Source of the DNA: Prochloraceae cyanobacterium
GTDB lineage: Bacteria > Cyanobacteriota > Cyanobacteriia > Cyanobacteriales > JASJDA01
Direction: 5' to 3'
Assembly: GCA_030065755.1 (NCBI GenBank)
Contig: JASJDA010000099.1
Span: 1-34,320, forward strand
Length of the DNA: 34,320 bases
A program made the position numbers and the translations under genes. The notes under the pieces are model-generated. The model did no database searches, had not been told where the DNA came from, and saw only the letters and a program-made list of their open reading frames with translations. This document shows, one piece after another, positions 17,663 through 34,240 of the stretch (the stretch's first letter is position 1; each line of letters begins with the position of its first letter).

Positions 17663-20600
17663 CTAGACCAAAATAATATCAGTGGCAACATTGAAGCTAA
17701 TGACATTCTCTAAAGTTGCTATTTGCTGCGTTCCAAATAAGAGAGAGTTATTTGCTACGTTAAAGCGGAAATTATCAGTATTTGTTATGCTACCAAATCC
17801 GCTCTTACTAATTTGAATTCGATCGCCTTGTTGGCCAGCATTAAAGTCAGTGATAATATCAATTCCTTCACTGGCAGAATTAAAGACAAAGCGATCGGCA
17901 CCTGCTCCTCCAGTTAAATTATCATTTCCAGTTCCTCCAGTTATAATATTATTCAAGGAATTTCCAATAATGTTATCGCTCTGGCTACCACCAACAACAT
18001 TTTCTATTTCAATACCAAACGCAGAATCTATAACAAGAGACAGATTGGCATTAATTTTTTGTAGTCTATGGTTACTAAGATCAATATTGATACTTTGAGA
18101 TGTTGTTTCTGAAAAGTTTAGTTCATCGTGACTATCGGGATTACGCTTAATTGGAGTGAATGATTCCCAAGTGTTAATAGAATCGTTCTGATTAATAGAC
18201 CAATCGGTGTCTCCATGAGGTAAATTAGGATTTCCCGCTCGGAAATACTTGTTGTGAAAAGTTTTAAAAGCTACTGTTCCGTTAGCATTTGGTATGATTT
18301 CAAATGATTCCCAAGTGTTAATAGAATCGTTCTGATTAATAGACCAATCAGTGTCTCCTTCAGGTAAATTAGGATTCCCTGCTCGTAAATACTTGTTATG
18401 AAAAGTTTTAATGGCTACTTTTGTTCCGTTAGCATTTGGTATGATTTCAAATGATTCCCAAGTGTTAATAGAATCGTTCTGATTAATATTCCAATTAGTA
18501 TCTCCATGAGGTAAATTAGGATTCCCTGCTCGTAAATACTTTTTATGAAAAGTTTTAAAAGCCATTCTAGTTTCAGAGATTCGATCAACTCCATTAGAGT
18601 AATCTGCATCAAAATAGTAAACGTCATTGCCAGTGCCACCCATTAACAGATCGTCACCCTGATGTCCTCTTAAAGTATCATCTCCATCGTCACCATAAAG
18701 GGTATCGTTATCTTGTTGACCCCACAGATCGTCATTCCCAGAACCTCCATAGAGTTTATCTCTACCTAGCCATCCACTTAAAGCATCATTTCCAGAACCG
18801 CCAACAAGACTATCATTTCCTTGCCGTCCATCTAAAATGTCGTTACCATCATTTCCTCGGAGAAGGTTATTGAACTGATTCCCTAATAATCTATCATCTA
18901 AACTTCCACCCACTGCATTTTCTATATCTACATAACTTTTTGAACCTAAAGTAGTACCTAAAGTCAAAGAAAGATGCTCATTAATTATCTGTTCTCCAGC
19001 AATATTAAGATCCAAGTTGATATTTTTTGTGGTGGTAACTGAAAAATCTAATGTATCTCTATCTCGATTTCGAGCTATGGGGGTAAATGTTTCCCAATCA
19101 CCAAGATTACTAGATTGGCTCATAGTACGCACCCATCGCGCTTGAATATAAGAATTTGCTGTTTTGCCCCAATCACCCCAATGATTTTGTAATGCAATCT
19201 TTCCAGCACCGCGATCGATCAGTTTAAATTTTTCAAACTTATTCAGCGCATCTGCTTGATCCACTATAAGTAGAGTATTTGCTCGAAGATAACGATTATG
19301 AAAAGTTTGTAGTCCAATTTTGCCGTCACCAACATCAATAACTTGAAATTCTTCCCAAGTATCAATTTGATCTGATTGATAAGTGGTTCTTAGAGCATCA
19401 GCTCTAACATAAGTGTTATGGTGAGTCTTGAGGGCAATTGTGGTTTCGTTAATTGTGTCAGATCCTTGCTGGGTATCTGTATCAAATACATATAAATCGT
19501 CTGTATTTGTTCCTTTCCCTGAATGTGACTCGTTTCCAGTTGCTCTTAAGTCACCATATAAATATTCCAAAGCTTTGAGATCGTAAGACTCAGGACCAGT
19601 ATTTACAGGAAGCTTGCTCTCATCCATCGCGGTGTTAGGGTTATCTTGTTTTGCACCACGGTAATATGACATCACTGTATTAAGACCGTTATCCTCGTTT
19701 GCGGGCAAAAAAGGTGAGTCTCCAGGTCCATCCCCATTGTAATCACCAGGATGTTTAAGACCCAAAGCATGTAAGGTTTCATGAACAAGAGTACTGTAAT
19801 TTCCGCTTCCTGCTCCTTCTCCCCAATTGTGTTGGGGGTTTAAATGTACATCTCCACCTGTTTCCGAATTACTTGGATAATATGCATAGGCATAAGATGG
19901 TCCATCAGAAAGTAAATAGCGAAGTTGACCATAACTTTTTCCTGCATCTGAAACTTTGACAAAATCTACATTAACTAATGACTCGATATTTTTTAGAACA
20001 TTTCGTATGTTAGATTTCGTTTGATTGCTAACTTCCCTAGGGTTTGTTTCCCCACCATAATAATCACCACCATCAAAAAAGCTATAAGTAATTCTGTTAT
20101 TTGCCCATTTTGTACCCCCTAACAAAGCATCAATCTGATAATCTCCAGTAGAACGAGACACTCCAATAGCATCACCAGCAGCTTGCTCGATCTCCATAAC
20201 CTGACCATCAAGGCTAATAGTAGCTTTATCATTCTCTGTCCGCAAAGCTGCTAACTCCCACTCAGTTAAAGTTTTACCCTGCACCAAGTTGGCAAAAATA
20301 TTACCTTCATCTCCAGTAGTATCGGTCTTATTAATTGATGAATCAACAAAATGTCCGTATTCTTCTAATAAAACATCGGTAATTAGTGAAGAATTTCCAC
20401 TATTTAAAAGCTCTTCAGCAATGTAAATCTTGCTAGTATCTGCTGAATATGCTCCGTTTGCTCCGTTGATTTCAGCCGAAGAACGAATTTCAATTTCTGG
20501 AAAAGAATCAAAAGTACCTGTTTGCCATTGCGTAATTAATAAAGAAACAGCTTGACGATCGTATTTGTCTCCAAAAGCCGTAGTAAGATTAGTTAGGAGT

Positions 20601-20692
20601 TCCTCTTTGAATGCAAAAGAAGTGAGTTGTTCTTTTGTAACTAAAATTGCTTTATTTAAAAGATTAGAGTAACTGTTTTGATTGTTCGTCAT
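17663..20692 (-). CDS. Secreted serralysin-type metalloprotease with RTX repeats and two fascin-like trefoils
   Basis: 1009 residues with ATG start at 20690-20692 and no N-terminal signal, as in type I secreted RTX proteins. Residues about 80-165 hold a zincin-like segment with LLEEYGHFVD (His114) and GDEGNIFANLV. The serralysin domain (about 175-385) has HETLHALGLKHP (His304, Glu305, His308, His314) and the Met-turn VMSYY (Met341). A first fascin-like beta-trefoil spans about 416-545 (LKTHHNTYVRA, LQTFHNRYLRA). RTX nonapeptides follow (about 596-700: GGSGNDALSG, GDDGDDTLRG). A second trefoil of three nearly identical lobes spans 710-856. More RTX repeats (about 897-940) and a C-terminal domain (ADRFVFNSASEGIDIITDF) close the protein. 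It should cleave extracellular proteins; the trefoils may bind polysaccharide or protein. No T1SS genes are nearby. Divergent from the CHAT gene. Confidence 0.9.
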   Translation of the reverse strand: MTNNQNSYSNLLNKAILVTKEQLTSFAFKEELLTNLTTAFGDKYDRQAVSLLITQWQTGTFDSFPEIEIRSSAEINGANGAYSADTSKIYIAEELLNSGNSSLITDVLLEEYGHFVDSSINKTDTTGDEGNIFANLVQGKTLTEWELAALRTENDKATISLDGQVMEIEQAAGDAIGVSRSTGDYQIDALLGGTKWANNRITYSFFDGGDYYGGETNPREVSNQTKSNIRNVLKNIESLVNVDFVKVSDAGKSYGQLRYLLSDGPSYAYAYYPSNSETGGDVHLNPQHNWGEGAGSGNYSTLVHETLHALGLKHPGDYNGDGPGDSPFLPANEDNGLNTVMSYYRGAKQDNPNTAMDESKLPVNTGPESYDLKALEYLYGDLRATGNESHSGKGTNTDDLYVFDTDTQQGSDTINETTIALKTHHNTYVRADALRTTYQSDQIDTWEEFQVIDVGDGKIGLQTFHNRYLRANTLLIVDQADALNKFEKFKLIDRGAGKIALQNHWGDWGKTANSYIQARWVRTMSQSSNLGDWETFTPIARNRDRDTLDFSVTTTKNINLDLNIAGEQIINEHLSLTLGTTLGSKSYVDIENAVGGSLDDRLLGNQFNNLLRGNDGNDILDGRQGNDSLVGGSGNDALSGWLGRDKLYGGSGNDDLWGQQDNDTLYGDDGDDTLRGHQGDDLLMGGTGNDVYYFDADYSNGVDRISETRMAFKTFHKKYLRAGNPNLPHGDTNWNINQNDSINTWESFEIIPNANGTKVAIKTFHNKYLRAGNPNLPEGDTDWSINQNDSINTWESFEIIPNANGTVAFKTFHNKYFRAGNPNLPHGDTDWSINQNDSINTWESFTPIKRNPDSHDELNFSETTSQSINIDLSNHRLQKINANLSLVIDSAFGIEIENVVGGSQSDNIIGNSLNNIITGGTGNDNLTGGAGADRFVFNSASEGIDIITDFNAGQQGDRIQISKSGFGSITNTDNFRFNVANNSLLFGTQQIATLENVISFNVATDIILV
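18162..18565. repeat. Three tandem near-identical 144/147-bp repeats inside the protease gene
   Basis: Copies begin at 18162, 18306 and 18453 on the + strand, each starting GATTCCCAAGTGTTAATAGA. They encode 48-49-residue lobes (KTFHNKYLRAGNPNLP, then INQNDSINTWESF). The lobes differ at only a handful of residues, indicating recent tandem duplication or gene conversion. They lie in a coding frame with no spacers, so this is not a CRISPR array. Confidence 0.9.
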
Positions 20693-20962: not shown

Positions 20963-23611
20963 ATGTTCAATTCTCATAAATTTTGGTTTCGTCGCGGACT
21001 GGCGATCGTTTTTCTAATTAGTCTCACTCTCAACCTAGGTTTAGCTAATATTTCCGCTAACGGTTTCCATTTAGCATTAGTAAAAAGGGCAATAGCGACA
21101 TCTTCTCATCCGAGGGAATTAGTGCAGCAAGGAGTAGAACTATATCAAACAGGAAATTTTCTAGGAGCGATCGACCGTTGGGAATCTGCTTTAAATATTT
21201 ATCAAAATAGCAATAACCGCCCTCATGGTGCCATTGTCTGGGAAAACTTAGCTAGAGCATACCAGCAAATTGGTAAAATCGATCGAGCTATTGAGTCTCG
21301 CTCGAAAGCGATCGACTACTACCGTCAAGAAAAAGACCTAGCTAGAGTAGGAAGGATATCGATCGAACAGGCTCAAGCCTACACTCATCTGGGAATATAT
21401 AAGCGATCGCTAACTCTCTTGTGTTCCCCCTCTGAGGAGGACTCAGAATGTCTTGCTGGGTCAGCTTTAGAAATTGCTCGCTCCACTGGCGATCGCCTTG
21501 CTGAAGCTGCTGCTGAGGGAAGTTTAGGGGATGTTTATCGTCTAAAAGGTTCTTACGATCGAGCCATAAAAGCCTTAGAAAATAGTTTAAAAATTGCACT
21601 AGAGATCGACAATAAATCTTATCAATCTTCGGCTTTGAATAGTTTAGGTAGTGTTTACGTCGGTCTAGCTCAAGTAAATTATCGCCGCGCTCGAGGAGCT
21701 GCAGAAATAGGAGATATCCACGATGCCGCTCGATTTCAACAGAGCGGACGCAATTACGATAATAAAGCGAGAAAATATTTTCAGCAAAGTTTAGATATCA
21801 GTAGTTCTCTAAATAATCGATCTGCACAACTAAAAACCCTTCTCAATTTAATTCGTCTCTATTACCGTATTAAAAAACTAAATTTAGCTGAGGATACTTT
21901 TAAAGAAGCTCTACCCTTGCTTAAAAGTCTGCCCGATTCTCGAAATAAAGTTTACGCTACGATCGATTTGGCTAATCTTTTACCACCTGTTATTTCGGTA
22001 GAGGATATTTCTTCTCCCACTCATTGCCAAAAACCAGAAGTTGACGAGCGAGCTGAAGAACTACTTAACCAAGCGATCGCCACTGCTAGTAGCCTTGAAG
22101 ATTTTCGCGCACTCTCTTTCGGTCTGGGTGAATTAGGTCATCTCTACGAGTGTCGCCAAAACTACGATCGAGCCCTAAATCTTACCAGACGTGCTTTAAG
22201 AGCAGCAGATAAAAATTTTTATGCCAAAGACAGTTTATATCTGTGGGAATGGCAAACGGGACGGATTTTAAAAGCACAAAATCACAATAAAGAGGCGATC
22301 GCAGCCTACGATCGTGCGGTGAAAACTTTAGAGAAAATCCGCAGCGACATTCTTATTTCCAGTCGCGATCTGCAATTTGATTTTCGAGATAGAGTTGCTC
22401 CTGTTTATCGAGAATTAGCTAAGTTGAAACTAGATAGGTTTTCTGTTCCATCTATTTCACCAATTACTCGCACATCTGAAGTTAACTCAGCTTTGATTAC
22501 AATCGACTCTCTGAGATTAGCAGAACTAGAAAACTATTTCGATAATAATTGTGTCTCAGAAGAGATCGACTCCAAAAATGTGACCCAGGTGCGAGAAAAT
22601 TACACAGCAATTTTCAATCTAGTTATTTTTGCCGATCGCACCGCTATTTTGCTCACCCTTCCTAACGGAGAACGGAAATTAGGGTGGATCGATATCGATC
22701 GCGATCGCTTGCGAGAAGAAATAAACGAATTTCGTCGAGGTCTAGAAAGATTCCGAGACTTTGTTTACAATCCCCAACAGGCACAAAAACTCTACAATTG
22801 GATTATTCGTCCTTTTGAGGAGCAACTGCGCCAAAATAAGATAAAAACACTTGTTTTTGTCCCAGACGGAATTTTACGCAGCGTACCGATGGCAGCTCTT
22901 CACGACGGGAAACAATTTCTCATTCAAAAGTATGCCATTGCTACTACTCCCAGTCTTTCGGTCACTGTCGCTCGCTCCCCAGACCCTAAAAATATTAAAG
23001 CACTAGCTTTAGGTTTGACTAAAGTAGCGAGGGTGGAAGGTCGCACATTTCCCGCTCTCAATAATGTTAGGTCAGAGATCGAGGCGATCGAGAATCAATT
23101 TCCCTCTAGCACAGTACTTTTGAACGAAGATTTTACCCGCGATCGCCTGGAACGAGAACTCACTCAAACAGTTTATCCCATTATTCACATAGCTACTCAC
23201 GGAGAGTTCAGCACCTTACCAGAAGATACTTTTTTAGTCACGGGAAATCAACAAAAATTAACTATTTCCCAGCTAGACGATCTCATCCGTAATATTAGTG
23301 GAGGGTCGCGATCGGTAGAACTGTTGGCACTTACAGCTTGCGAAACTGCTGTAGGCGACGAGCGTGCGGCTCTTGGTTTAGCTGGAGTAGGTGTGAGAGC
23401 TGGAGTCAGAAGTACTTTAGCTTCTCTGTGGTCGATTCAAGATGCACCCACTGCTAGTTTAGTATCTAAATTTTACGCTCGTCTGAGCCAAACCAATACG
23501 ACTAAAGCAGAGTCTTTACAATTCGCTCAAAAAGCTGCGATCGAAGCTGGGGGAAGATATGCTCATCCTGCTTACTGGGCACCTTTTATTTTAATTGGGA
23601 ACTGGAGATAA
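20963..23611 (+). CDS. Exported TPR-CHAT caspase-like protein
   Basis: The start is placed at ATG 20963 (MFNSHKFWFRRGLAIVFLIS), giving 882 residues; a TTG 48 bases upstream would only add a non-hydrophobic leader. Residues about 10-30 are a signal peptide or anchor. TPR units fill about 45-460 (ELVQQGVELYQTGNFLGAI, AAEGSLGDVYRLKGSYDRAI, LGELGHLYECRQNYDRAL, KEAIAAYDRAVKTLEKIRSD). The C-terminal CHAT domain (about 600-880) has the catalytic His in IIHIATHGEFS (His746) and Cys in LALTACETAVG (Cys793), then GLAGVGVRAGVRSTLASLW and HPAYWAPFILIGNW. Both dyad residues are present, so it is probably an active cysteine protease outside the cytoplasm. TPRs would bind a substrate or partner. It lies beside DUF928 and a CHASE2 kinase. 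Confidence 0.9.
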   Translation: MFNSHKFWFRRGLAIVFLISLTLNLGLANISANGFHLALVKRAIATSSHPRELVQQGVELYQTGNFLGAIDRWESALNIYQNSNNRPHGAIVWENLARAYQQIGKIDRAIESRSKAIDYYRQEKDLARVGRISIEQAQAYTHLGIYKRSLTLLCSPSEEDSECLAGSALEIARSTGDRLAEAAAEGSLGDVYRLKGSYDRAIKALENSLKIALEIDNKSYQSSALNSLGSVYVGLAQVNYRRARGAAEIGDIHDAARFQQSGRNYDNKARKYFQQSLDISSSLNNRSAQLKTLLNLIRLYYRIKKLNLAEDTFKEALPLLKSLPDSRNKVYATIDLANLLPPVISVEDISSPTHCQKPEVDERAEELLNQAIATASSLEDFRALSFGLGELGHLYECRQNYDRALNLTRRALRAADKNFYAKDSLYLWEWQTGRILKAQNHNKEAIAAYDRAVKTLEKIRSDILISSRDLQFDFRDRVAPVYRELAKLKLDRFSVPSISPITRTSEVNSALITIDSLRLAELENYFDNNCVSEEIDSKNVTQVRENYTAIFNLVIFADRTAILLTLPNGERKLGWIDIDRDRLREEINEFRRGLERFRDFVYNPQQAQKLYNWIIRPFEEQLRQNKIKTLVFVPDGILRSVPMAALHDGKQFLIQKYAIATTPSLSVTVARSPDPKNIKALALGLTKVARVEGRTFPALNNVRSEIEAIENQFPSSTVLLNEDFTRDRLERELTQTVYPIIHIATHGEFSTLPEDTFLVTGNQQKLTISQLDDLIRNISGGSRSVELLALTACETAVGDERAALGLAGVGVRAGVRSTLASLWSIQDAPTASLVSKFYARLSQTNTTKAESLQFAQKAAIEAGGRYAHPAYWAPFILIGNWR

Positions 23612-23631
23612 TTGTTATTTAATTGCAGTTT

Positions 23632-23719
23632 AACAGTTATCAGTCAACAGTTATCAGTTAACCGCTCGCGAAGTGAGAAATAACTTATAGGCTATAACTG
23701 ATAACTGATAACTGATTTA
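23632..23719. repeat. Large inverted repeat of cagttatcagt units
   Basis: The left arm (23632-23663) contains two CAGTTATCAGT units ending in TTAACC. The right arm (23695-23719) contains repeated ACTGATA units, the reverse complement. The loop carries CTCGCGAAGTGAG. It fills the gap between convergent CHAT and DUF928 genes and abuts the DUF928 stop. Such gttatcagt repeats are common between cyanobacterial genes. It may act as a two-way terminator. Confidence 0.75.
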
Positions 23720-24412
23720 ATCAATAGCACCTCTATATTCGATAATCTGTCTCAAACGATCGCCAGAGTGGTTTTCTGGGGTTGTTTTTGTTTCTTCCTC
23801 AATCTCAGCCAAATTCCCTAACAAAGCGGAAGCCTCTGAAGAAAGTTGGCCATTTCCACTACTTTCTAAAGCTGCTGTGAGGCGATCGTACCAGAAGCTA
23901 GATCCCGAAGAGGCACCTATCTCGACAACATCAATCTCTGCATTAGCCACCAAATCCCTCGAAGGTCGGTTAGGATTGCAAATAATTGCCACTTGCCAAA
24001 TATATCTACGACCTACTTTTAGACCGAGTTGCTCTTTTGGCATAGAGAACTTCATAATTCCTGGAGAACTTTTTAGATCGACCGCGAAGATTGGTGTGGG
24101 TCGATCGAGAGATCGATCGTATTCGTAGATAGTAAATGTGAGGGGAAAAGATTGGGAATCTGGAATAAACCAAGCAAAACTCGGATGAGTAGAAGCTGTT
24201 TGTCCGACGTGAGATTGAGGAGCGAGTAATGTTAGGGGAATTTCTCGATCGAGATCGCATCCACCCCGACTACCTGCAGATTGTGTTTTCTCTTTCGGAG
24301 GAGGTCGATCGTCTGCGGGAGGCTTATATTCAGCCAATCCTACAGAGGTTGTACCTAAGAAAAAGAGAAGGAGCGAGCTACTGAATAATGCGATCGCAAT
24401 ATTTTTATTCAT
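23717..24412 (-). CDS. DUF928 family secreted protein
   Basis: 231 residues, ATG start at 24410-24412. A signal peptide (MNKNIAIALFSSSLLLFFLG to about residue 27) is followed by PPADDRPPPKEKTQSAGSRGGC, a family hallmark. LTLLAPQSHVGQTASTHPSF and AWFIPDSQSFPLTFTIYEYD form the first half, and LKVGRRYIWQVAIICNP the second, followed by a helical tail. The pattern is complete for DUF928. In cyanobacteria this family is often found near CHAT, CHASE2 and haemagglutinin-type genes; function unknown. It is transcribed with the same polarity as the kinase gene, 204 bases downstream of it. Confidence 0.88.
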   Translation of the reverse strand: MNKNIAIALFSSSLLLFFLGTTSVGLAEYKPPADDRPPPKEKTQSAGSRGGCDLDREIPLTLLAPQSHVGQTASTHPSFAWFIPDSQSFPLTFTIYEYDRSLDRPTPIFAVDLKSSPGIMKFSMPKEQLGLKVGRRYIWQVAIICNPNRPSRDLVANAEIDVVEIGASSGSSFWYDRLTAALESSGNGQLSSEASALLGNLAEIEEETKTTPENHSGDRLRQIIEYRGAID

Positions 24413-24511
24413 GAAAGTTCCTCCGAATGGCGAAACTGCTTCTTGTCCTTCAATTATTGACTTTTTTTGAGAATTTGTAAGTGAGAAAAAGTAATAAAAA
24501 GTATGGAAATT

Positions 24512-24540
24512 GAAAAGTCAAAAGTCAAAAGTTAAAAGTA
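24512..24540. repeat. AAAAGTC-type short tandem repeat
   Basis: GAAAAGTCAAAAGTCAAAAG followed by TTAAAAGTA forms about four 7-base AAAAGTC-like units. A related, oppositely oriented TTACTTTTTACTTTTTACC tract lies at 24617-24635 and encodes the last residues of the CHASE2 kinase. Confidence 0.7.
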
Positions 24541-24616
24541 ATTTTAAGTTTTGTATTAAAATCGCCGACTTACAATATACTGGCCTATTAAACTCAAAGT
24601 TTGTCAGAATATTTTT

Positions 24617-26530
24617 TTACTTTTTACTTTTTACCAAAGGCCAAAATTTGCTCAGCAATGAAAAAGAAAAAGACTTTTGCATCGGCCAAGTTAACTCGCA
24701 CACAGTTCCTCGTGGAGAAAGAGGCGATCGCTTAAATTTTCCACCTAGTTTAAGAGATAATTTTTTAGATTGCTTTGTTCCTTGACCTTCAAAGGAAAAG
24801 CTACCACCTCTTCCATTATCTTCAATTCTTAAAACGCACCACTGTCCTTCTTGAATTAAAAATACCTTAAGACGAGTTAAGCCAGTGGCATATTTACCCG
24901 CATTACACAAAGCTTCTTCGAGAAATCTACACAGTCCTCGCTTGTCTTCCGTCTTTAAATTTGGGTAGTCGATCGGATCGAATTTAGGAATGGTAACTTT
25001 TAGAGTTCTAAAACAAGGAAAGTTTCTTTCTAGAGTATGGCGGTAGACTTGATAGAGAAGTTCGTGAAGAGGAAGATTGAGATCTAACTTTACCCCTTCT
25101 CCCAAAAGAATACTGTCTTCAAAACTAACAGTTTCTTGTTCGAGGAATTTATAGACTTTTCTTAAATCCGTATCTACAGTATTCAATCTTGAAAGTAATT
25201 GTTCTGTTGGTAAATCTCCATCTCGAACATCTCTAATCAAAGATTTTAGAGTTTGTAGTGGGCCATTGTGAATATCTTCAAAAGTTCGTTCGATCGTCGA
25301 TCGCTGAATACTAATTCTAGAGCGTAAAGCTAAGTCATATTGATAAAAACCAAATAAAACTAAGGCATTAACAACGAAAACTAACAAAGCTGGTACTACA
25401 GGAATCCACCAACCCCATCCCAATAATAGATAACTTACTCCCACAAGAGTTATACTACTGACAAATACAATGCTTAAGTTTTTTATAGGAGATTTAAAAA
25501 TCCGACCGAGAATAATTCCCAGCACTCCCCAGCCGACTATCCACAAATAATCCCATACTTCCCACCAAGAGCGCAACAGAGGTCTATTATCCTCGATCGC
25601 GCTGAGGATTTGACTGACGGCGTGAGCGTGAACTTCTACCCCATATATTAAACCAGAGCCTGCATTAGTATCATCAATAGCAGAACTACTAAAAACATCC
25701 CCCACACTAGGTGCAGTCATACCAACTAGGACAACGCGATCGCGCGCCCAATTCGGGTCAAAATTGCCTGTTTCGAAGTCATTTAATGATATTGTTCTAA
25801 ATGGTCTCGAACCGCTGCGAAAATTAAGCAATATCTGCACTCCACCATCATCTGCTCCTACGTAGCCTCCAGAATTAGGAAAAAAGCGAGGAAGTTCCAC
25901 ATTACCAAAGCGCACAGCGTAAGGATCGCGGATGCCATTTTCTAGAGTTATTCCTTCAACTGATAGATAAGCTTCTGCTAAACGCAGAGACAAAGAGAAC
26001 TTGTATTCTCCAGAATTAGAAATTACTAAAAACATTCTTCTGAGAGAACCATCAGCATCGATCGTTACATCTGAAAAACCAATTTGTTCGGGAGCTAAAG
26101 CTAGTGGTGCAGAGAAGCGATCGGGCATGACTTTTTCAATTCCCACGATCTTTTTATTATTTTTAAAAACAGTGGCAAGTTCTTTATTTCCTGGTTCAAC
26201 TGGTCGATCTCTAACCAGATCCAGACCAATAGCTCTAGGATTGTATTTCTGTAACTTTGTTATTATTTCGGCAATTTTCTCATCTGGTAAGGGATAAGAA
26301 GGAGCTTGGCTAATATCATTTTCGTCAATACCAATAATTAAGATTCGCTCGTCTATTGCTTCTGGAGATCGTAATTTAAGAAAGCGATCGAAAGCAAACC
26401 ATTCCAAAGATTGCAACTGACCTGTTAAGCGACCGACAATGACCGTCATTATAATTATCAGTCCTGGCAGCCATCCTACAGACCAAAGAGAAATTTTCTC
26501 TTGCCATTGTTTTTTTCGATGAGACCGCAC
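24617..26530 (-). CDS. CHASE2-domain sensor histidine kinase
   Basis: 637 residues with GTG start at 26528-26530. One N-terminal membrane helix (WLPGLIIIMTVIVGRL) is followed by the extracytoplasmic CHASE2 domain (about 35-325: DERILIIGIDENDI, PRAIGLDLVRD, VVLVGMTAPSVGDVF, GVEVHAHAVSQIL). Three further helices span about 327-397. The DHp-like box RTFEDIHNGPLQTLKS supplies His421, in the NarX-like style. The ATPase part has LEEALCNAGKYA (Asn543), RIEDNGRGG (Asp571) and a short G2 region before RGTVCELTWP. The signal is unknown. It starts 18 bases after the response regulator stop, so they form an operon. The final 21 residues extend past the usual domain end and are encoded in part by a simple repeat. 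Confidence 0.9.
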   Translation of the reverse strand: MRSHRKKQWQEKISLWSVGWLPGLIIIMTVIVGRLTGQLQSLEWFAFDRFLKLRSPEAIDERILIIGIDENDISQAPSYPLPDEKIAEIITKLQKYNPRAIGLDLVRDRPVEPGNKELATVFKNNKKIVGIEKVMPDRFSAPLALAPEQIGFSDVTIDADGSLRRMFLVISNSGEYKFSLSLRLAEAYLSVEGITLENGIRDPYAVRFGNVELPRFFPNSGGYVGADDGGVQILLNFRSGSRPFRTISLNDFETGNFDPNWARDRVVLVGMTAPSVGDVFSSSAIDDTNAGSGLIYGVEVHAHAVSQILSAIEDNRPLLRSWWEVWDYLWIVGWGVLGIILGRIFKSPIKNLSIVFVSSITLVGVSYLLLGWGWWIPVVPALLVFVVNALVLFGFYQYDLALRSRISIQRSTIERTFEDIHNGPLQTLKSLIRDVRDGDLPTEQLLSRLNTVDTDLRKVYKFLEQETVSFEDSILLGEGVKLDLNLPLHELLYQVYRHTLERNFPCFRTLKVTIPKFDPIDYPNLKTEDKRGLCRFLEEALCNAGKYATGLTRLKVFLIQEGQWCVLRIEDNGRGGSFSFEGQGTKQSKKLSLKLGGKFKRSPLSPRGTVCELTWPMQKSFSFSLLSKFWPLVKSKK

Positions 26531-26548
26531 AATATTCTTTGATTCTCC

Positions 26549-27229
26549 TCAATCTATTAAACCTTCTTCTCTAGCTCTTATTTGAGTTTGAATGCGAATA
26601 TTTTTACCTGCTTCGGGATATACCCCCAAAGTGTCTTGAATCTTAGTCCAATAATTGCGAACTGTGCGCTCAGATATCTGCATTCGTCTAGCAATTTCTT
26701 TATCTTGTAATCCTTCTTCAAAAGCCAGAGAAAGTAAAGTAAGCCACTCCTGTTTGACTTCTAATCCTTTGAGCTTTCCTCTGATATCTTTGGTATGAGT
26801 TAATCCTTGGATAGCCCAATCTACTCTAGTTAACATTTCCTGACTAGAAATACTCTTATCTGCTACTGTAAACCCTCCTTGATGGGCATCGATATCCAGT
26901 TTAATCCGCACTAATGCCTCTACATAAGTACTTTGTACGACTAAATTTAGAGTTGGATAATCTTTCATTAAAGTTTTTAATAATTTAATACCAGTATCGA
27001 CGCGAGCATTTTCCCCAGGCTTTTCTGGAATTGAGAGATCGGTGACCACCAATTCGGGTTGGTTTATTTCCATTTGCTCGATCGCTTTTTGCGCAGTTAA
27101 AGCGGTGAATATTTTCGCATCAGGATATTGCTTTTTCAGTATGTCGAGAGTTCCATTTAATACTATTTCGTGGTCGTCAACTACAAGAAATTTGGTCTGA
27201 TTCGACGTTTCTGATAAAACTTTGCTCAT
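26549..27229 (-). CDS. NarL/FixJ-type response regulator
   Basis: 226 residues from ATG 27227-27229 (MSKVLSETSNQTKFLVVDDH); a GTG 12 codons upstream is possible but less likely. The receiver domain has Asp18/Asp19, phospho-acceptor Asp64 in VVTDLSIPEK, Thr/Ser in VVQSTYVEAL and Lys125 in TVADKS. The LuxR-type helix-turn-helix is LQDKEIARRMQISERTVRNYWTKIQ. It should receive phosphate from the CHASE2 kinase encoded just downstream, and bind DNA as a dimer. Possible targets are its own operon and the divergent exoprotein gene; this is inferred from position. Confidence 0.92.
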   Translation of the reverse strand: MSKVLSETSNQTKFLVVDDHEIVLNGTLDILKKQYPDAKIFTALTAQKAIEQMEINQPELVVTDLSIPEKPGENARVDTGIKLLKTLMKDYPTLNLVVQSTYVEALVRIKLDIDAHQGGFTVADKSISSQEMLTRVDWAIQGLTHTKDIRGKLKGLEVKQEWLTLLSLAFEEGLQDKEIARRMQISERTVRNYWTKIQDTLGVYPEAGKNIRIQTQIRAREEGLID

Positions 27230-27322
27230 GGTTAATATTGCGATCGTAGCCGAGCAATACGGCACTATTTTTTAATTTTTCTTCTTGAAGAAATATAACC
27301 AGAAACAAGTGCAAGTGAGTCA

Positions 27323-27350
27323 AACCAATATCAAAAAATTCAAATTGGTT
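27323..27350. promoter_or_regulatory. Inverted repeat between regulator and exoprotein genes
   Basis: AACCAAT and ATTGGTT pair perfectly (7 bp) over a 14-base AT spacer, 67 bases before the exoprotein start and 94 bases upstream of the regulator start. It is a candidate binding site for the NarL-type regulator, unproven. Confidence 0.3.
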
Positions 27351-27416
27351 AGAGGTTCGAGATGATAAACTATCCCAAGCGCCTTCCTCTGTCCGCTAAC
27401 CGCCCTAAAAAAATTA

Positions 27417-30400
27417 ATGATTAACTATAGTAAGCTGGCAATAGTTTTTTCTTTTAGCTGTTCGTTGTTATTTTCTAATTCTGTGACTGCACAGCTAGCA
27501 CCAGATCGCACTTTAGGATCGGAAAGTACCAGAGTTAGGCGCAACGTAAATATAAGAGGGTACAATAGCGATCTCGGAGAGATCCGCGAAGCGGTGCGTA
27601 TTGATGGGGGTGCGATAAGAGGAAAGAATTTATTTCACAGTTTTCGGGAATTCAATGTGGGACGAGGGAGAGGAGTATATTTCACGAATCCAACAGGAGT
27701 TGAGAATATTCTCACCCGCGTAACTGGAAGAAATCCCTCGAATATTCTGGGAAGATTAGGGGTATTAGGGGGAGCCAATCTATTTCTGATTAATCCCAAT
27801 GGTATTTTATTTGGCAAAGATGCTACTTTAGACCTGCGCGGTTCATTTTACGCCACAACAGCAGATGGGATAAAGTTGGGAGAAAATGGTGTATTTAGTG
27901 CGAGTGACCCTCCTAATAGTAATTTGCTGACGGTGCAGCCAGGGGCGTTGTTTCACAATGCCATGAGGAATTATTTAGCAACAATTGAAAATCGAGGAAA
28001 TCTCAGCGCACAGGGAAATCTATTTTTATCTGCCGATCGACTTAATTTACAAGGACAGCTTTTTGCGGGAGAAAATCTGATTTTGCAAGCAAGAGAGACC
28101 CTGAAAATCGGAGATAGTCTCACCCAAGCGTTTATCGCCACAGCAAGAGAAAATCTCATCGTCGAGGGTCAGGAGACATTAAATATTTTAGCTTTGAATC
28201 ATCCCCGCAGTGGTCTATTTTCTGGAGGAGATATGGTGTTGCGAAGCGCAAATACCATAGTAGGAGATGGCTATTACTGGAGTGGGGGCAATTTTAGCAT
28301 CGAGCAATTAGATCGAAGTTTTGGAAATTGGTCGAGTATCAAAGATCCAATTATTCGCTCCATAGGAGATGTAGTTTTTAATGAATATACAGGAGGGTCA
28401 CTACAGATTATCGCTGGGGGAAGTGTGAATGTTCCAGGTATTATTACTATAGTAAGTCCAGAGCCATTCACTTCTATCCCAACTCAAGTAACTCTCTCAG
28501 ATGGAACAGAGATATCTCTTGACAGGAGTACTAGACCAACTGTTGACATACGTGCAGGAGTAGACCCAAATCAAATTGATTTTAATGTTCCTATATCTAA
28601 CAATCTTTTAGCTCAAATTATTACCTCCGATCGCGCTACAAGTGCGGATATAAATATAGGAGGTATTGTGATGTTGGGTGAAAATGCCGCAAATGGAACG
28701 GTATTGTTAACTAATCAGTACCGACCATTACTCTCATTGCCAGGTGGAGATATTAGAGTAGGAGCAATTATTACAACCGATCGCCTGTCTGAAGTTTTAA
28801 GTCAGCCGCAATTAAGTAAGGTTTTCCAACTTCCTCCAGGAGTGAATCCAGATTTTAATGGAGACGGGGGGGATGTAATTATTGATTCGAGAAATAGTAT
28901 TCAATCTCTACTAAATCCAATTTCACGACAAAAGTTTAGCTTTATAAATACGAGTTCGGCTTCTGGAAATTCTGGAGATATAACTCTTCTTGCCAAAGAT
29001 AATATTTCTGCGACTAATAGTTTTATTTTAGGCGATACATTTGGCGCAGGTCAAAGTGGAAATATTACTATTAAAGCTAGCTCAATAGAACTGATTGACA
29101 GCACGGTAGCTTCTAATATTCGAGAAAGTGGGGCAGGAAACGGTGGCAATATATCGATCTACACAGAGAAACTAAGACTTAATGGAAATACCTTTATATC
29201 AACTGCTAACTTTAGTGCTAACGAGAATAGTATTGGAGGAGATATTACTATCTCTGCAACAGAGTTACTAGAGTTTATTGGCACTCAAAAGAACCCAGGG
29301 CAAACTATTGCTGAGGGTGTTCAGAAAGGAGACTTTAGTCTATCCGATATCAGCAGTTTTATCACTACTGTTACTAGTGATAATGGGTTAGGTGGCGACC
29401 TAACAATTAATGCTGGAAAATTGATTGCTCAAAGAGCAATAATCAGCACTGGTACCTTAAATGGGGGAAATGGAGGTAAATTAAACGTAAATGCAACTGA
29501 AAAAATTGAGTTAATTAATGCTGTTCTATTTTCTCCTGCTGCGAGGGCAGGAAATGCACAAGATGCCACGATTAATACGAGGAAATTGATTGTTCGGGAT
29601 GGCTCGCAAATAACTACGAATACCTTTGGTGATGGAAATGCAGGTGATATGTTTATAACTGCAACAGAGTCAGTAGAATTATCATCCTCATTGGTAAATA
29701 ATCTGTTTCCCAGTGGCTTATTTGCCAGCACGATCGGCGGAACAGGAGATGCAGGCAACATAATTATTAACACGGGACGTTTGATTGTGCAAGATGGAAC
29801 GTCAATTAATACTCTTACTGGTTCCCTTAGCCAAGACACTATTTTCGAGCTTTCAAACATTGGAGGTCAAGCGGGAAATATTGTTATCGACGCCAGAGAA
29901 TCTGTTGTGCTAAGTGGCTCTACCAAAATCAGCGGTGCAAGGGACTCATTAGCCCGCCCTAGCATAATAACTGCTTCTACTTCAAGCAAATACCCTGGTG
30001 GCAATATACAAATAACAACGGGAAAGTTTATTCTTCAGGGAGGGGCACAGGTATCAACTGCTAGTTTTTTCACAGGAAATCCAGGAGAGTTGAGGATTAT
30101 TGCTGATGAAATAGATTTGACAGGTGCTGAGGTACGATTATTACCTGACTATATACAAAGCAGTGGTTTGTTTGCTTTGGCTGCAGAAACTTCTACAAGT
30201 ACTGGGAGTACTATTATCCTCGATTCCCAAAGTATAATCATTCGAGATGGTGCCAGAATTGCGGTTGACAGTCAGGGTTCTGGAATCGCGGGTAATATTA
30301 ACTTAACCTCAGATTCTCTTACCCTCGATCGTCGTGGAACCATTTCAGCAGAAACAAATAGCGATCGGGGCGGAAATATCACGATCGATCTGGGCGATCG

Positions 30401-31061
30401 ATTAATATTACGACGCAACAGTATCATTTCCACAACTGCTGGCTTAGAAGGAGGAAGGGGAAATGGCGGTAACGTCACCATCAACACTCCTTCGATCGTC
30501 GCTTTCCCCAGAAATAACCAAATTATTTCTAAAGCTTTTGAGGGGAATGGCGGCAAGATTAACATTAGCACTAATGCTATTTTAGGCTATCCTCAATATC
30601 TAACTATCGATGCTTCTTCACAACGAGGCATCGACGGCACAATTACTTTTAATAACCTAGAAACCGATCTCAATTCTAATCTCACCAAATTATCGGAAAA
30701 TGTTATTAATACTGAAAATATAATAGCCAGCAGTTGTTTGCGAAGGAGCCGAGCGAAAAAAAGTACTTTTATTGTCTCTGGAGCAGGAGGATTACCGCAA
30801 CGACCCAACTCCTTATATATCTCGGATTTCCCGACAGGAGAGGTGCGCTCGATTCCCATTTCAACAGATGCTTTAGAACCAAGCATTGACAAAAAAGCGG
30901 TTGTTGTGGTAAGCAAAAAACCTGAAAATGAACCAGTGGTAATTCGACAAGCGCGAGGTTGGATTAAAAAACCAGATGGTACTATAGTTCTGACTGCTTA
31001 TCCTACAGAGGGAACGTCTCCTTCTCCTTCGGTAAATCGCTCTGATTGCTCGACTAATTGA
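27417..31061 (+). CDS. Two-partner-secretion exoprotein (filamentous haemagglutinin N-terminal domain)
   Basis: 1214 residues with a signal peptide (to about residue 25, SNSVTA). The TPS domain follows: GKNLFHSFREFNVGRGRGVYF, VTGRNPSNILGRLGVLGGAN, and the NPNGILFG motif (Asn126). The body is a long right-handed beta-helix built from about 25-residue repeats with GNGGNI-, GGDITI- and SGNITI-like turns. The C-terminus has SSCLRRSRAKKSTFIVSGAG, GGLPQRPNS and a tail ending in Cys, all typical of cyanobacterial members. A TpsB/FhaC pore would export it; none is in this window. It is probably a surface adhesin. Divergent from the response regulator. Confidence 0.92.
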   Translation: MINYSKLAIVFSFSCSLLFSNSVTAQLAPDRTLGSESTRVRRNVNIRGYNSDLGEIREAVRIDGGAIRGKNLFHSFREFNVGRGRGVYFTNPTGVENILTRVTGRNPSNILGRLGVLGGANLFLINPNGILFGKDATLDLRGSFYATTADGIKLGENGVFSASDPPNSNLLTVQPGALFHNAMRNYLATIENRGNLSAQGNLFLSADRLNLQGQLFAGENLILQARETLKIGDSLTQAFIATARENLIVEGQETLNILALNHPRSGLFSGGDMVLRSANTIVGDGYYWSGGNFSIEQLDRSFGNWSSIKDPIIRSIGDVVFNEYTGGSLQIIAGGSVNVPGIITIVSPEPFTSIPTQVTLSDGTEISLDRSTRPTVDIRAGVDPNQIDFNVPISNNLLAQIITSDRATSADINIGGIVMLGENAANGTVLLTNQYRPLLSLPGGDIRVGAIITTDRLSEVLSQPQLSKVFQLPPGVNPDFNGDGGDVIIDSRNSIQSLLNPISRQKFSFINTSSASGNSGDITLLAKDNISATNSFILGDTFGAGQSGNITIKASSIELIDSTVASNIRESGAGNGGNISIYTEKLRLNGNTFISTANFSANENSIGGDITISATELLEFIGTQKNPGQTIAEGVQKGDFSLSDISSFITTVTSDNGLGGDLTINAGKLIAQRAIISTGTLNGGNGGKLNVNATEKIELINAVLFSPAARAGNAQDATINTRKLIVRDGSQITTNTFGDGNAGDMFITATESVELSSSLVNNLFPSGLFASTIGGTGDAGNIIINTGRLIVQDGTSINTLTGSLSQDTIFELSNIGGQAGNIVIDARESVVLSGSTKISGARDSLARPSIITASTSSKYPGGNIQITTGKFILQGGAQVSTASFFTGNPGELRIIADEIDLTGAEVRLLPDYIQSSGLFALAAETSTSTGSTIILDSQSIIIRDGARIAVDSQGSGIAGNINLTSDSLTLDRRGTISAETNSDRGGNITIDLGDRLILRRNSIISTTAGLEGGRGNGGNVTINTPSIVAFPRNNQIISKAFEGNGGKINISTNAILGYPQYLTIDASSQRGIDGTITFNNLETDLNSNLTKLSENVINTENIIASSCLRRSRAKKSTFIVSGAGGLPQRPNSLYISDFPTGEVRSIPISTDALEPSIDKKAVVVVSKKPENEPVVIRQARGWIKKPDGTIVLTAYPTEGTSPSPSVNRSDCSTN

Positions 31062-32505: not shown

Positions 32506-32925
32506 TTACTTTTTTTTTCGATAATCATCTTTTTCATTCCATTTCTGATTTTCAATATATTTTTTAACTACTTCTATAGGTGCGCCACCAACTGTAGAGA
32601 CGAAATAACTATTAGTCCATAAACTAGGCAATCTACTTTTAAGCCAAGGGAATTCTTGTCTTAAAAATCTCGAAGATCTTCCTTTAATTCTTTTGATAGC
32701 TTTATGAACGCCAAATTGCGGATCTACCTCTATTAGTATATGTACGTGGTCTGGCATTATCTCTAACTCTAGAATTTCGCATTCCATATCGTTTGCAGTT
32801 TCATAAATAATTTCCTTTAATCTCGTATCTACTCCATTCTTTAAGACTGAACGACGATATTTAGGACAAAAAACTACATGATATTTACAAGAGTAAACGA
32901 TATTATTGTTACTTTTATATTTCAC
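32506..32925 (-). CDS. tnpA: IS200/IS605 Y1 (HUH) transposase TnpA
   Basis: 139 residues, full family length, ATG at 32925. The N-terminal YSCKYHVVFCPKYRRSVL is the conserved first strand. The HUH motif is MPDHVHILIE (His60, His62), and the nucleophile is Tyr123 in KKYIENQ. All key residues are intact. It differs clearly from the first tnpA, so the two IS loci are not copies of one element. It may mobilise either locus only if their end hairpins match, which I could not test. Confidence 0.94.
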   Translation of the reverse strand: MKYKSNNNIVYSCKYHVVFCPKYRRSVLKNGVDTRLKEIIYETANDMECEILELEIMPDHVHILIEVDPQFGVHKAIKRIKGRSSRFLRQEFPWLKSRLPSLWTNSYFVSTVGGAPIEVVKKYIENQKWNEKDDYRKKK

Positions 32926-32986: not shown

Positions 32987-34240
32987 ATGGCGCGAAGATC
33001 GGCATCACCTAGTTTTATTACAGAAATTCCTCTTCAGACAAGTTTAGTAGAGGAAAAGGTGCTGCTGTCGCGACTCGAAGCTGGACGACAACTATATAAT
33101 GCTTGCTTAGGTGAAGCGATGCGGCGAGTACGATTAATGCGTCAAAGCAAGCTACCTAAAAAAGCAAGAAAGTTACCGAAAGACAGTAAAGAGAGAACCT
33201 CTTTATTTAAATTCGTCAACCAGCAATATTGCTACTCTGAATATGCTTTACATAGTTACGCTAAACATATTCGAGCATCATGGATAGGAGAACATATCGA
33301 TGCTAACACAGCTCAAACTCTAGCTACTCGTGCTTTTACCGCTTCTCAAAAAGTTTTATTCGGGAAAGCAAGGAGAGTTAGGTTTAAAGGTAAAAATCAG
33401 CTAGATTCGGTTGAAGGAAAAAGTAACAAACAAGGCATACGTTGGAAGAACGAACGGGTTATTTGGAGTCAGCTAGAAATAACCCCCTTAATTACAAAGA
33501 ACGATCCAGTTATTCTGCATGGACTTAACAGTAAAATCAAATATGTTCGTCTAGTAAGACGAAAAATGAATGGTAAAAATAGGTTCTACGTTCAATTAGT
33601 TTGTGAAGGATTTCCTTATCAAAAAACCATTAATTTTAGTGGGAATGAAACTATTGGTTTGGACTTAGGCCCGTCTACAATTGCTATTGTTGGTAAAACC
33701 CAGGCAAAATTAACTGAATTCGCTCCAGAACTTGATTTAAATCAAAAATATAGTGGAGCTAGAGAGAAAAAGCCTTTATCCCAAAGAGTTCATAGTTGTA
33801 ATTGTGGTGTAATCAGCCAAAGAGATTTATACTCCGCGTATTTGGCTCGTTTTGTCGATGATAATCGCTTGCAAGCAGATCTGGCTCAAAAAGCTTGGTC
33901 GGGGGCGGAACTGCTCCTGCGGACGGCTTGGCAACAGGCGATCGAACAAACTAACCAGCAATTAGATGGTCGAGTACCTTCTTCCTTTGGCAAAATTCCC
34001 CCAGAGTTAGAGTTGGTCGTCCCGAAGGTAATAGGTACTACTGAGAGTTTGGATGATGTATCTATCAGCAATGATGGAGAGAGCCAAATAAAGGTAGTTA
34101 ACCAATTTACTAACCATGCCTCTGGTGGTGGGTGTTATGAACCCCCTCCCTGCCTTGAACGACTGATAAGGAGTGGAAGGCTTCAACTACTAAGACCAAA
34201 TCTCGCGATTATGGTCTTAGATTGTCGAGATTCAGCTTGA
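32987..34240 (+). CDS. tnpB: TnpB-family protein with an internal in-frame deletion
   Basis: 417 residues, ATG at 32987. The N-terminal part is well preserved (RSASPSFITEIPLQTSL, EAGRQLYNACLGEAMRRV, HSYAKHIRASWIGEH, GLNSKIKYVRLVRRKMNGK). RuvC-I is intact (GLDLGPSTIAIVG, Asp226). At about residue 254 (DNA near 33750) the sequence jumps from FAPELDLNQK to GAREKKPLSQRVHSCNCG, which in the full-length relatives I remember lies beyond the RuvC-II Glu and the first zinc knuckle. RuvC-III remains (QRDLYSAYLARF, Asp280). Over 100 residues seem lost with the frame kept. Without the Glu it should not cut DNA; it may be a decaying gene or a binding-only protein. A promoter and a 3' pseudoknot remain. 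Confidence 0.8.
   Translation: MARRSASPSFITEIPLQTSLVEEKVLLSRLEAGRQLYNACLGEAMRRVRLMRQSKLPKKARKLPKDSKERTSLFKFVNQQYCYSEYALHSYAKHIRASWIGEHIDANTAQTLATRAFTASQKVLFGKARRVRFKGKNQLDSVEGKSNKQGIRWKNERVIWSQLEITPLITKNDPVILHGLNSKIKYVRLVRRKMNGKNRFYVQLVCEGFPYQKTINFSGNETIGLDLGPSTIAIVGKTQAKLTEFAPELDLNQKYSGAREKKPLSQRVHSCNCGVISQRDLYSAYLARFVDDNRLQADLAQKAWSGAELLLRTAWQQAIEQTNQQLDGRVPSSFGKIPPELELVVPKVIGTTESLDDVSISNDGESQIKVVNQFTNHASGGGCYEPPPCLERLIRSGRLQLLRPNLAIMVLDCRDSA
34150..34240 (+). ncRNA. Candidate omega/reRNA scaffold at the tnpB 3' end
   Basis: Stem 1 pairs CTAAGACCA (34190-34198) with TGGTCTTAG (34212-34220). Stem 2 pairs AATCTCG (34199-34205), inside the stem 1 loop, with CGAGATT (34226-34232) beyond it. 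Both are perfect, giving an H-type pseudoknot. A shorter GCCTT/AAGGC helix lies upstream (34152-34181). Overlap with the last tnpB codons is where guide RNAs of TnpB elements normally arise. Limits are approximate. Confidence 0.5.

Follow-up and report, generated by a model that had tools for sequence, protein, structure and literature searches.

In the two-partner secretion (TPS, type Vb) exoproteins HMW1 and HxuA, a C-terminal loop closed by a disulfide is kept in the periplasm and locks the exoprotein, TpsA, in its pore, TpsB (PMC5422565). In Pseudomonas aeruginosa a cysteine hook anchors the TPS adhesin CdrA until cleavage of the C-terminal tail by the periplasmic protease LapG sets the adhesin free (PMC11898600, PMC5422565). 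The proteases known to mature TpsA proteins are encoded by genes outside TPS operons, according to a 2017 review (PMC5422565). Here we describe a stretch of DNA of 34,320 nucleotides (the window; contig 65 of the 8.46 Mb draft genome of a Prochloraceae cyanobacterium, GCA_030065755.1) in which the gene for a TPS exoprotein stands together with genes for a putative caspase-like CHAT protease, a DUF928 protein, a CHASE2 sensor histidine kinase and a NarL/LuxR-type response regulator (RR). This gene set is called the cassette below, and its CHAT protein is proposed as a candidate protease for the exoprotein.

Single parts of the cassette have described counterparts. The TPR-CHAT protein Csx29, whose His/Cys pair is equivalent to that of the cassette CHATs, has been proven to be a regulated protease (PMC10028731), cyanobacteria have a putative CHAT protease in HetF (PMC8406250), and TPS fusions with beta-helical passengers have already been recorded, for example Tery_3487 of Trichodesmium (PMC3297439). 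A literature search returned, among the papers covered, no description of the full gene set and no tie between CHASE2 and CHAT in cyanobacteria; DUF928 was mentioned in a single paper, and Tery_3487 was the only one-piece TPS gene of cyanobacteria found mentioned. In large cyanobacteria, few unexplained envelope genes are as common as those for CHAT, DUF928, CHASE2 and haemagglutinin-like proteins.

Results

The exoprotein tail and its replacement by CHAT

The best clue to the mechanism is a two-cysteine tail at the C-terminus of the exoprotein, a feature absent from the preliminary description of this DNA. In the window protein Cys1107 and Cys1211 are the only cysteines of the mature chain, as expected of an anchor of the HMW1 type, and they are predicted to form a disulfide. 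Among complete TPS proteins encoded by separate genes, 58/60 contain exactly two cysteines, both within the last ~150 residues, and the remaining 2/60 carry the tail pair plus two further cysteines. The conserved tail between both cysteines would form a loop of about 65-130 residues with a GxGGLP motif, and no Pfam or NCBIfam family spans it. A profile of the tail matched TPS proteins, one-piece TPS-TpsB proteins and six unassigned open frames, and matched no TPS-CHAT fusion.

What stands at the C-terminus of these fusions? There are 25 TPS proteins, 950-3700 residues long, that end in a CHAT domain, and none of them has the two-cysteine tail, such that CHAT takes its place. The catalytic cysteine of CHAT is kept in all 25 and is the sole cysteine of the protein in about half. 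One open frame (L015:890-7396) runs from a glycosyltransferase family 2 domain straight into a TPS-CHAT exoprotein; it could be a genuine chimera or the result of an in-frame junction with the gene upstream.

A second kind of joined gene, present in about 18/245 genomes, encodes TPS passenger, tail, POTRA domain and ShlB barrel in one piece (L024:4933-9324 and L230-L248, for example L236:7584-11906). The tail lies between passenger and POTRA domain in all one-piece genes examined, and the POTRA domain of known TPS pores is periplasmic; this position agrees with a tail that would be kept in the periplasm. These genes were chosen by sequence and not by context, so the counts of CHAT beside them are unbiased by selection: a CHAT gene was found in the fetched piece of 20/20, and at 18/19 newly fetched loci it lies on the same strand with its start overlapping the end of the TPS gene. 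DUF928 and CHASE2 are both present at 17/20 of these loci. Separate TPS loci were partly picked for nearby DUF928, which biases their CHAT counts.

Other genes also recur beside the one-piece genes. Upstream of the one in L236 is a subtilisin-like protein of ~2000 residues (L236:3-6185; S8, P-domain, Calx-beta, FG-GAP, SBBP), and open reading frames (ORFs) of similar size lie upstream at L230, L247 and L232, the Pfam scan having covered the L236 pair only. A small ORF of ~215 aa often separates the subtilisin-like gene from the one-piece TPS gene, and in L236 it has a PEP-CTERM-like end.

The gene association exceeds chance

Pfam matches of five families were listed in eight genomes and neighbours were counted within 10 kb; about 150 of 209 CHAT matches were listed, and the CHAT counts are lower bounds. 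Of 59 DUF928 genes, 41 have a CHASE2 neighbour (expected 1.9), 27 a TPS neighbour (expected 2.0), at least 33 a CHAT neighbour (expected 3.8) and 16 a TpsB neighbour (expected 0.6). In two complete genomes, gene positions were rotated at random such that clustering was preserved. There, 12 DUF928-CHASE2 neighbours were observed against a null mean of 0.55, a value reached in 0/20,000 rotations, and CHAT-TPS neighbours, with fused genes excluded, numbered 7 against 1.13 (29/20,000 rotations). The association is genuine, greatly exceeds chance and extends across the cyanobacterial phylum, which bears out the earlier statement that CHAT, DUF928, CHASE2 and haemagglutinin-type genes are often close together.

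The source genome itself contains 26 CHAT, 11 TPS, 9 CHASE2, 8 DUF928 and 8 ShlB/FhaC-family Pfam matches, and seven such clusters, five of which include TpsB. The preliminary description had noted that no TpsB gene is present within the window, and this holds; it had also called for a search for the FhaC-like gene. All eight ShlB/FhaC-family matches lie on contigs other than that of the window, with none singled out as the cognate pore.

The cassette class of the window

Relatives of the RR occur in 69/245 genomes of the order. In 40 RR neighbourhoods a kinase of the window's type is found in 38 and bears a CHASE2 domain in 32, with DUF928 in 22, CHAT in 16 and TPS in 11. A contig scan was also made from the DUF928 side, for which a clade of close relatives of the window protein was used because an alignment of DUF928 at large was too heterogeneous for such a scan. 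Its 64 loci, all cyanobacterial, include the CHASE2 kinase in 57, the RR in 55, CHAT in 46, TPS in 26 and TpsB in 9. In the usual layout, RR, CHASE2 kinase and DUF928 share a strand (median gaps of 66 and 268 bases), CHAT is on the opposite strand and TPS lies beyond CHAT.

The closest kin of the window TPS protein, its own genome aside, are TPS proteins from other cassettes of RR, CHASE2 kinase, DUF928 and CHAT; a second copy in its own genome is 65% identical. The tail ends of this class are distinctive, in that 25/28 TPS proteins from RR/kinase cassettes and their DUF928 clade end in the style VEPQGVYRLxNGxLVLSREC (20 by pattern and five by eye), against 0/32 by pattern in other cassettes.

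The preliminary description had stressed that the two-component pair is divergent from the exoprotein gene. This is true of the window, but it is not the conserved layout, and a conserved regulatory unit of divergent RR and TPS genes was rejected since the canonical place of TPS is beyond CHAT. At L102, L104, L109 and L112, RR relatives adjoin a soluble kinase of about 300 aa without CHASE2, beside other conserved genes; this arrangement possibly represents an ancestral version of the two-component pair, or a split one.

The CHAT, DUF928 and CHASE2 proteins

The His/Cys dyad of CHAT is conserved in 108/109 related proteins. The window CHAT domain has both residues, His746 and Cys793, and its protease activity is putative. 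The protein starts with a signal-like segment at its N-terminus, and an N-terminal stretch of hydrophobic residues occurs in 86% of cassette CHATs, which makes the cassette CHAT protein look exported. The two-component pair is similarly well preserved: the H-box His and the N-box Asn of the kinase are each present in 96/97 relatives and the phospho-acceptor Asp of the RR in 99/99, and the window proteins contain the H-, N- and G-box residues and the Asp and Lys of a receiver. The HATPase domain of the window kinase scores 24.5 bits, slightly below the Pfam cut-off of 26.4, and the start codon of the RR is uncertain, with an ATG also at residue 13.

The window DUF928 match covers profile positions 2-118 of 184, and Cys52 and Cys145 are invariant in the alignment. 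Its AlphaFold model (mean pLDDT 84.6) is an Ig-like beta-sandwich followed by C-terminal helices. A function was not assigned from this fold, as its matches in the PDB are weak, partial and generic Ig-like sandwiches. The CHASE2 model (pLDDT 85.5) found no match in the PDB, and nothing meaningful came out of sequence searches of the PDB with either the CHAT domain of the window or DUF928.

The outputs of CHASE2 proteins encoded beside DUF928 vary among histidine kinase, adenylate/guanylate cyclase, AAA_35 ATPase and PAS-rich hybrid kinase, and across these sister cassettes the envelope parts are constant while the CHASE2 output changes. Two CHASE2 proteins (L036:5379-7661 and L031:13257-16184, the latter with a cyclase domain) carry a weakly scoring N-terminal CHAT on the cytoplasmic side, perhaps an inactive adaptor. 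The LapG family (PF06035) was found in 0/120 genomes of the order, the window's own included, with a positive control genome. Of the genes at the locus that the Pfam scan covered, none encodes a GGDEF/EAL protein, a genome-wide search for LapD-type proteins not having been made.

The locus

All five genes of the window are present together, as the preliminary description stated, and all are intact, in the order TPR-CHAT (+), DUF928, CHASE2 kinase and RR (-), and TPS exoprotein (+); their features are collected in Table 1. The exoprotein has the TPS domain and NPNG motif of a TpsA protein, together with a signal peptide and beta-helix as judged from its sequence.

Table 1. Coordinates of the five cassette genes and of their notable residues in the window.
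Feature	Position	Strand	Size or residue	Basis
TPR-CHAT caspase-like protease (putative), exported by prediction	20963..23611	+	882 aa	Pfam CHAT E=5.9e-61, TPRs
CHAT catalytic dyad, His	23198-23200	+	His746	
CHAT catalytic dyad, Cys	23339-23341	+	Cys793	
DUF928 protein, exported by prediction	23717..24412	-	231 aa	Pfam E=8.6e-26
CHASE2 sensor histidine kinase	24617..26530	-	637 aa	Pfam CHASE2 E=8.1e-66
Kinase phospho-acceptor	25268-25270	-	His421	HNGPLQT H-box
NarL/LuxR-type RR, LuxR-type HTH	26549..27265	-	238 aa	Pfam
RR phospho-acceptor	27038-27040	-	Asp76	
TPS (type Vb) exoprotein	27417..31061	+	1214 aa	Pfam TPS E=3.9e-40; NCBIfam TIGR01901 2.9e-25
NPNG motif of exoprotein	27792	+	residue 126	
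C-terminal two-cysteine tail of exoprotein	30705..31058	+		outside Pfam and NCBIfam coverage
Tail cysteine	30735-30737	+	Cys1107	one of two cysteines after signal peptide
GAGGLP motif within tail	30780	+		
Tail cysteine	31047-31049	+	Cys1211	one of two cysteines after signal peptide

A scan of the locus for promoters and terminators gave signals no better than those of shuffles. The CHAT gene is flanked by an RTX/M10 metalloprotease with beta-trefoil-like FRG1/DUF569 repeats (17663-20692), which occupies the usual TPS side of relatives. It was rejected as a member of the set, since its matches elsewhere are almost all to RTX repeats only. Transposase genes lie at both window ends: an IS605-type transposase (OrfB) at 954-2228, and an IS200 transposase (32506-32925) with an adjoining TnpB-like protein (32987-34240) that is without a Pfam match and seems to be damaged at its C-terminus.

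Discussion

How might the products of these genes work together? We hypothesize that this five-gene cassette represents a conserved module with which cyanobacteria produce a giant TPS exoprotein and release it. A TpsB pore whose gene lies elsewhere in the genome would take the exoprotein across the outer membrane, and the C-terminal tail, about 110 residues long and closed by one disulfide, would remain in the periplasm as a plug that holds the exoprotein at the cell surface. Cleavage at or near this plug by the exported TPR-CHAT protease would then release or mature the exoprotein. DUF928, predicted to be an exported Ig-like protein, probably helps to assemble the protease, the exoprotein or the sensor. 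The CHASE2 sensor would relay the state of the envelope to the cytoplasm via its histidine kinase and the LuxR-type RR, and in sister cassettes the signal would leave through a cyclase, an AAA ATPase or another output.

The central step, in which an exported CHAT cuts the disulfide-closed tail plug to release or mature the exoprotein, is given a probability of roughly 45%. CHAT is proposed for the job of LapG because the tail appears to be closed by cysteines, a cysteine protease that looks exported adjoins it, CHAT replaces the tail in fusions, and LapG is absent from the genomes searched. The preliminary description had raised the idea of a caspase-like protease processing an adhesin; this idea is now much stronger because CHAT and TPS are joined by fusions and overlapping genes, and the exported look and intact dyad of CHAT add to it, with cleavage itself a prediction. 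The wider claim is more tentative: that across the phylum an exported CHAT of the same cassette, under the watch of CHASE2, cuts a disulfide-locked TPS plug to release adhesins, and that in fusions the protease is itself the plug.

Could the exoprotein serve mainly as a sensor antenna? Surface contact or damage would then lead CHAT to cut the exoprotein or DUF928, and the product would be a CHASE2 ligand that switches genes on. Such a cascade would fit the position of CHASE2 as the most constant partner of DUF928 (41/59), the change of CHASE2 outputs while the envelope parts stay, and the existence of CHAT-CHASE2 fusions (L036, L031). However, the CHAT of those fusions scores weakly and lies on the cytoplasmic side, and so is not an exported protease; moreover, no ligand is known and the CHASE2 model is without a PDB match, and we consider this explanation unlikely. 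We give still less credence to the proposal that the tail serves the beta-helix solely as a folding cap, with CHAT as a DegP-like quality-control protease of the envelope that degrades stalled exoprotein. DegP does degrade HMW1 and FHA upon a secretion block (PMC5422565) and a disulfide loop could cap the helix, but the proposal leaves unexplained both the replacement of the tail by CHAT in fusions and the overlap of CHAT with one-piece TPS-TpsB genes (18/19), and those TpsA tails that are known to bear a disulfide serve as anchors in the periplasm.

The position of CHAT in the TPS-CHAT fusions, which is that of the toxin in contact-dependent inhibition (CDI) systems, raises a further question, since CDI systems use TPS proteins for toxin delivery. 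Is a fused or bound CHAT a protease toxin that the exoprotein carries into neighbouring cells, and do DUF928 or CHASE2 protect against it? In the cassettes CHAT is mostly a separate exported protein, its domain is well conserved and not hypervariable, and a small immunity gene is not consistently found downstream of the fusions; we regard competition of this kind as very improbable.

Several observations weigh against tail cleavage by CHAT as the function of the window's cassette. The window deviates from the layout of its class by having the TPS gene on the side of the RR, and the tail of its exoprotein is one of the 3/28 exceptions, with an end of the class usual in other cassettes; the TPS gene may be a substitute in the cassette. 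The upstream regions of the RR, CHAT and TPS genes share no motif that was convincing after multiple testing (gapped 4+4-mers against 400 control upstreams). Around TPS-CHAT fusions, from which short pieces were fetched, DUF928 was found in 4/25 and CHASE2 in 3/25, and the module may consist of two pairs, CHAT-TPS and DUF928-CHASE2, that overlap and are in part independent. Fusions of one kind may stem from few events, such that the exclusion between tail and CHAT does not amount to 25 independent observations, and the tail could merely cap the beta-helix. Finally, the disulfide, the cleavage and the localisation are all read from genomic anatomy.

What would release by a cassette CHAT add to what is known? 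TPS exoproteins, disulfide anchors, protease release and a TPS-TpsB fusion in a cyanobacterium are known. The new element is a candidate TpsA maturation protease encoded beside the TPS gene, contrary to the review of known cases. A shared mechanism, if true, would jointly explain the CHAT, DUF928, CHASE2 and haemagglutinin-like genes and would give a role to exported bacterial caspase homologues. It would also extend the retention-release logic of CdrA and LapG to a phylum without LapG, and DUF928 and the uncurated C-terminal tail would become testable parts of one machine.

Comparison with known systems

The proposed cassette is like CdrA/CdrB and LapG, which are under c-di-GMP control, in that a TPS adhesin bears a C-terminal tail with cysteines and a cysteine protease would effect its release. 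It differs in the protease, a TPR-CHAT caspase-like candidate unrelated to LapG, in the frequent position of the CHAT gene beside or overlapping the TPS gene, and in its sensor, which is CHASE2, with no LapD-like protein among the identified cassette genes. With HMW1 and HxuA of Haemophilus influenzae it shares two C-terminal cysteines that are expected to form a loop impassable for TpsB, whereas the cassette loop, whose disulfide is predicted, spans about 65-130 residues, has the GxGGLP motif and is uncovered by sequence families. The sister cassettes with one-piece passenger-POTRA-barrel genes resemble type Vd or fused TPS proteins (PlpD; Tery_3487), but are set apart by a TPS beta-helix passenger, a two-cysteine tail before POTRA and a CHAT gene that overlaps the 3' end. 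Finally, the combination of TPR and CHAT with a His/Cys dyad is common to the cassette CHATs, Craspase (Cas7-11/Csx29) and HetF; the latter two work within the cell or at the site of division, whereas the cassette CHATs look exported.

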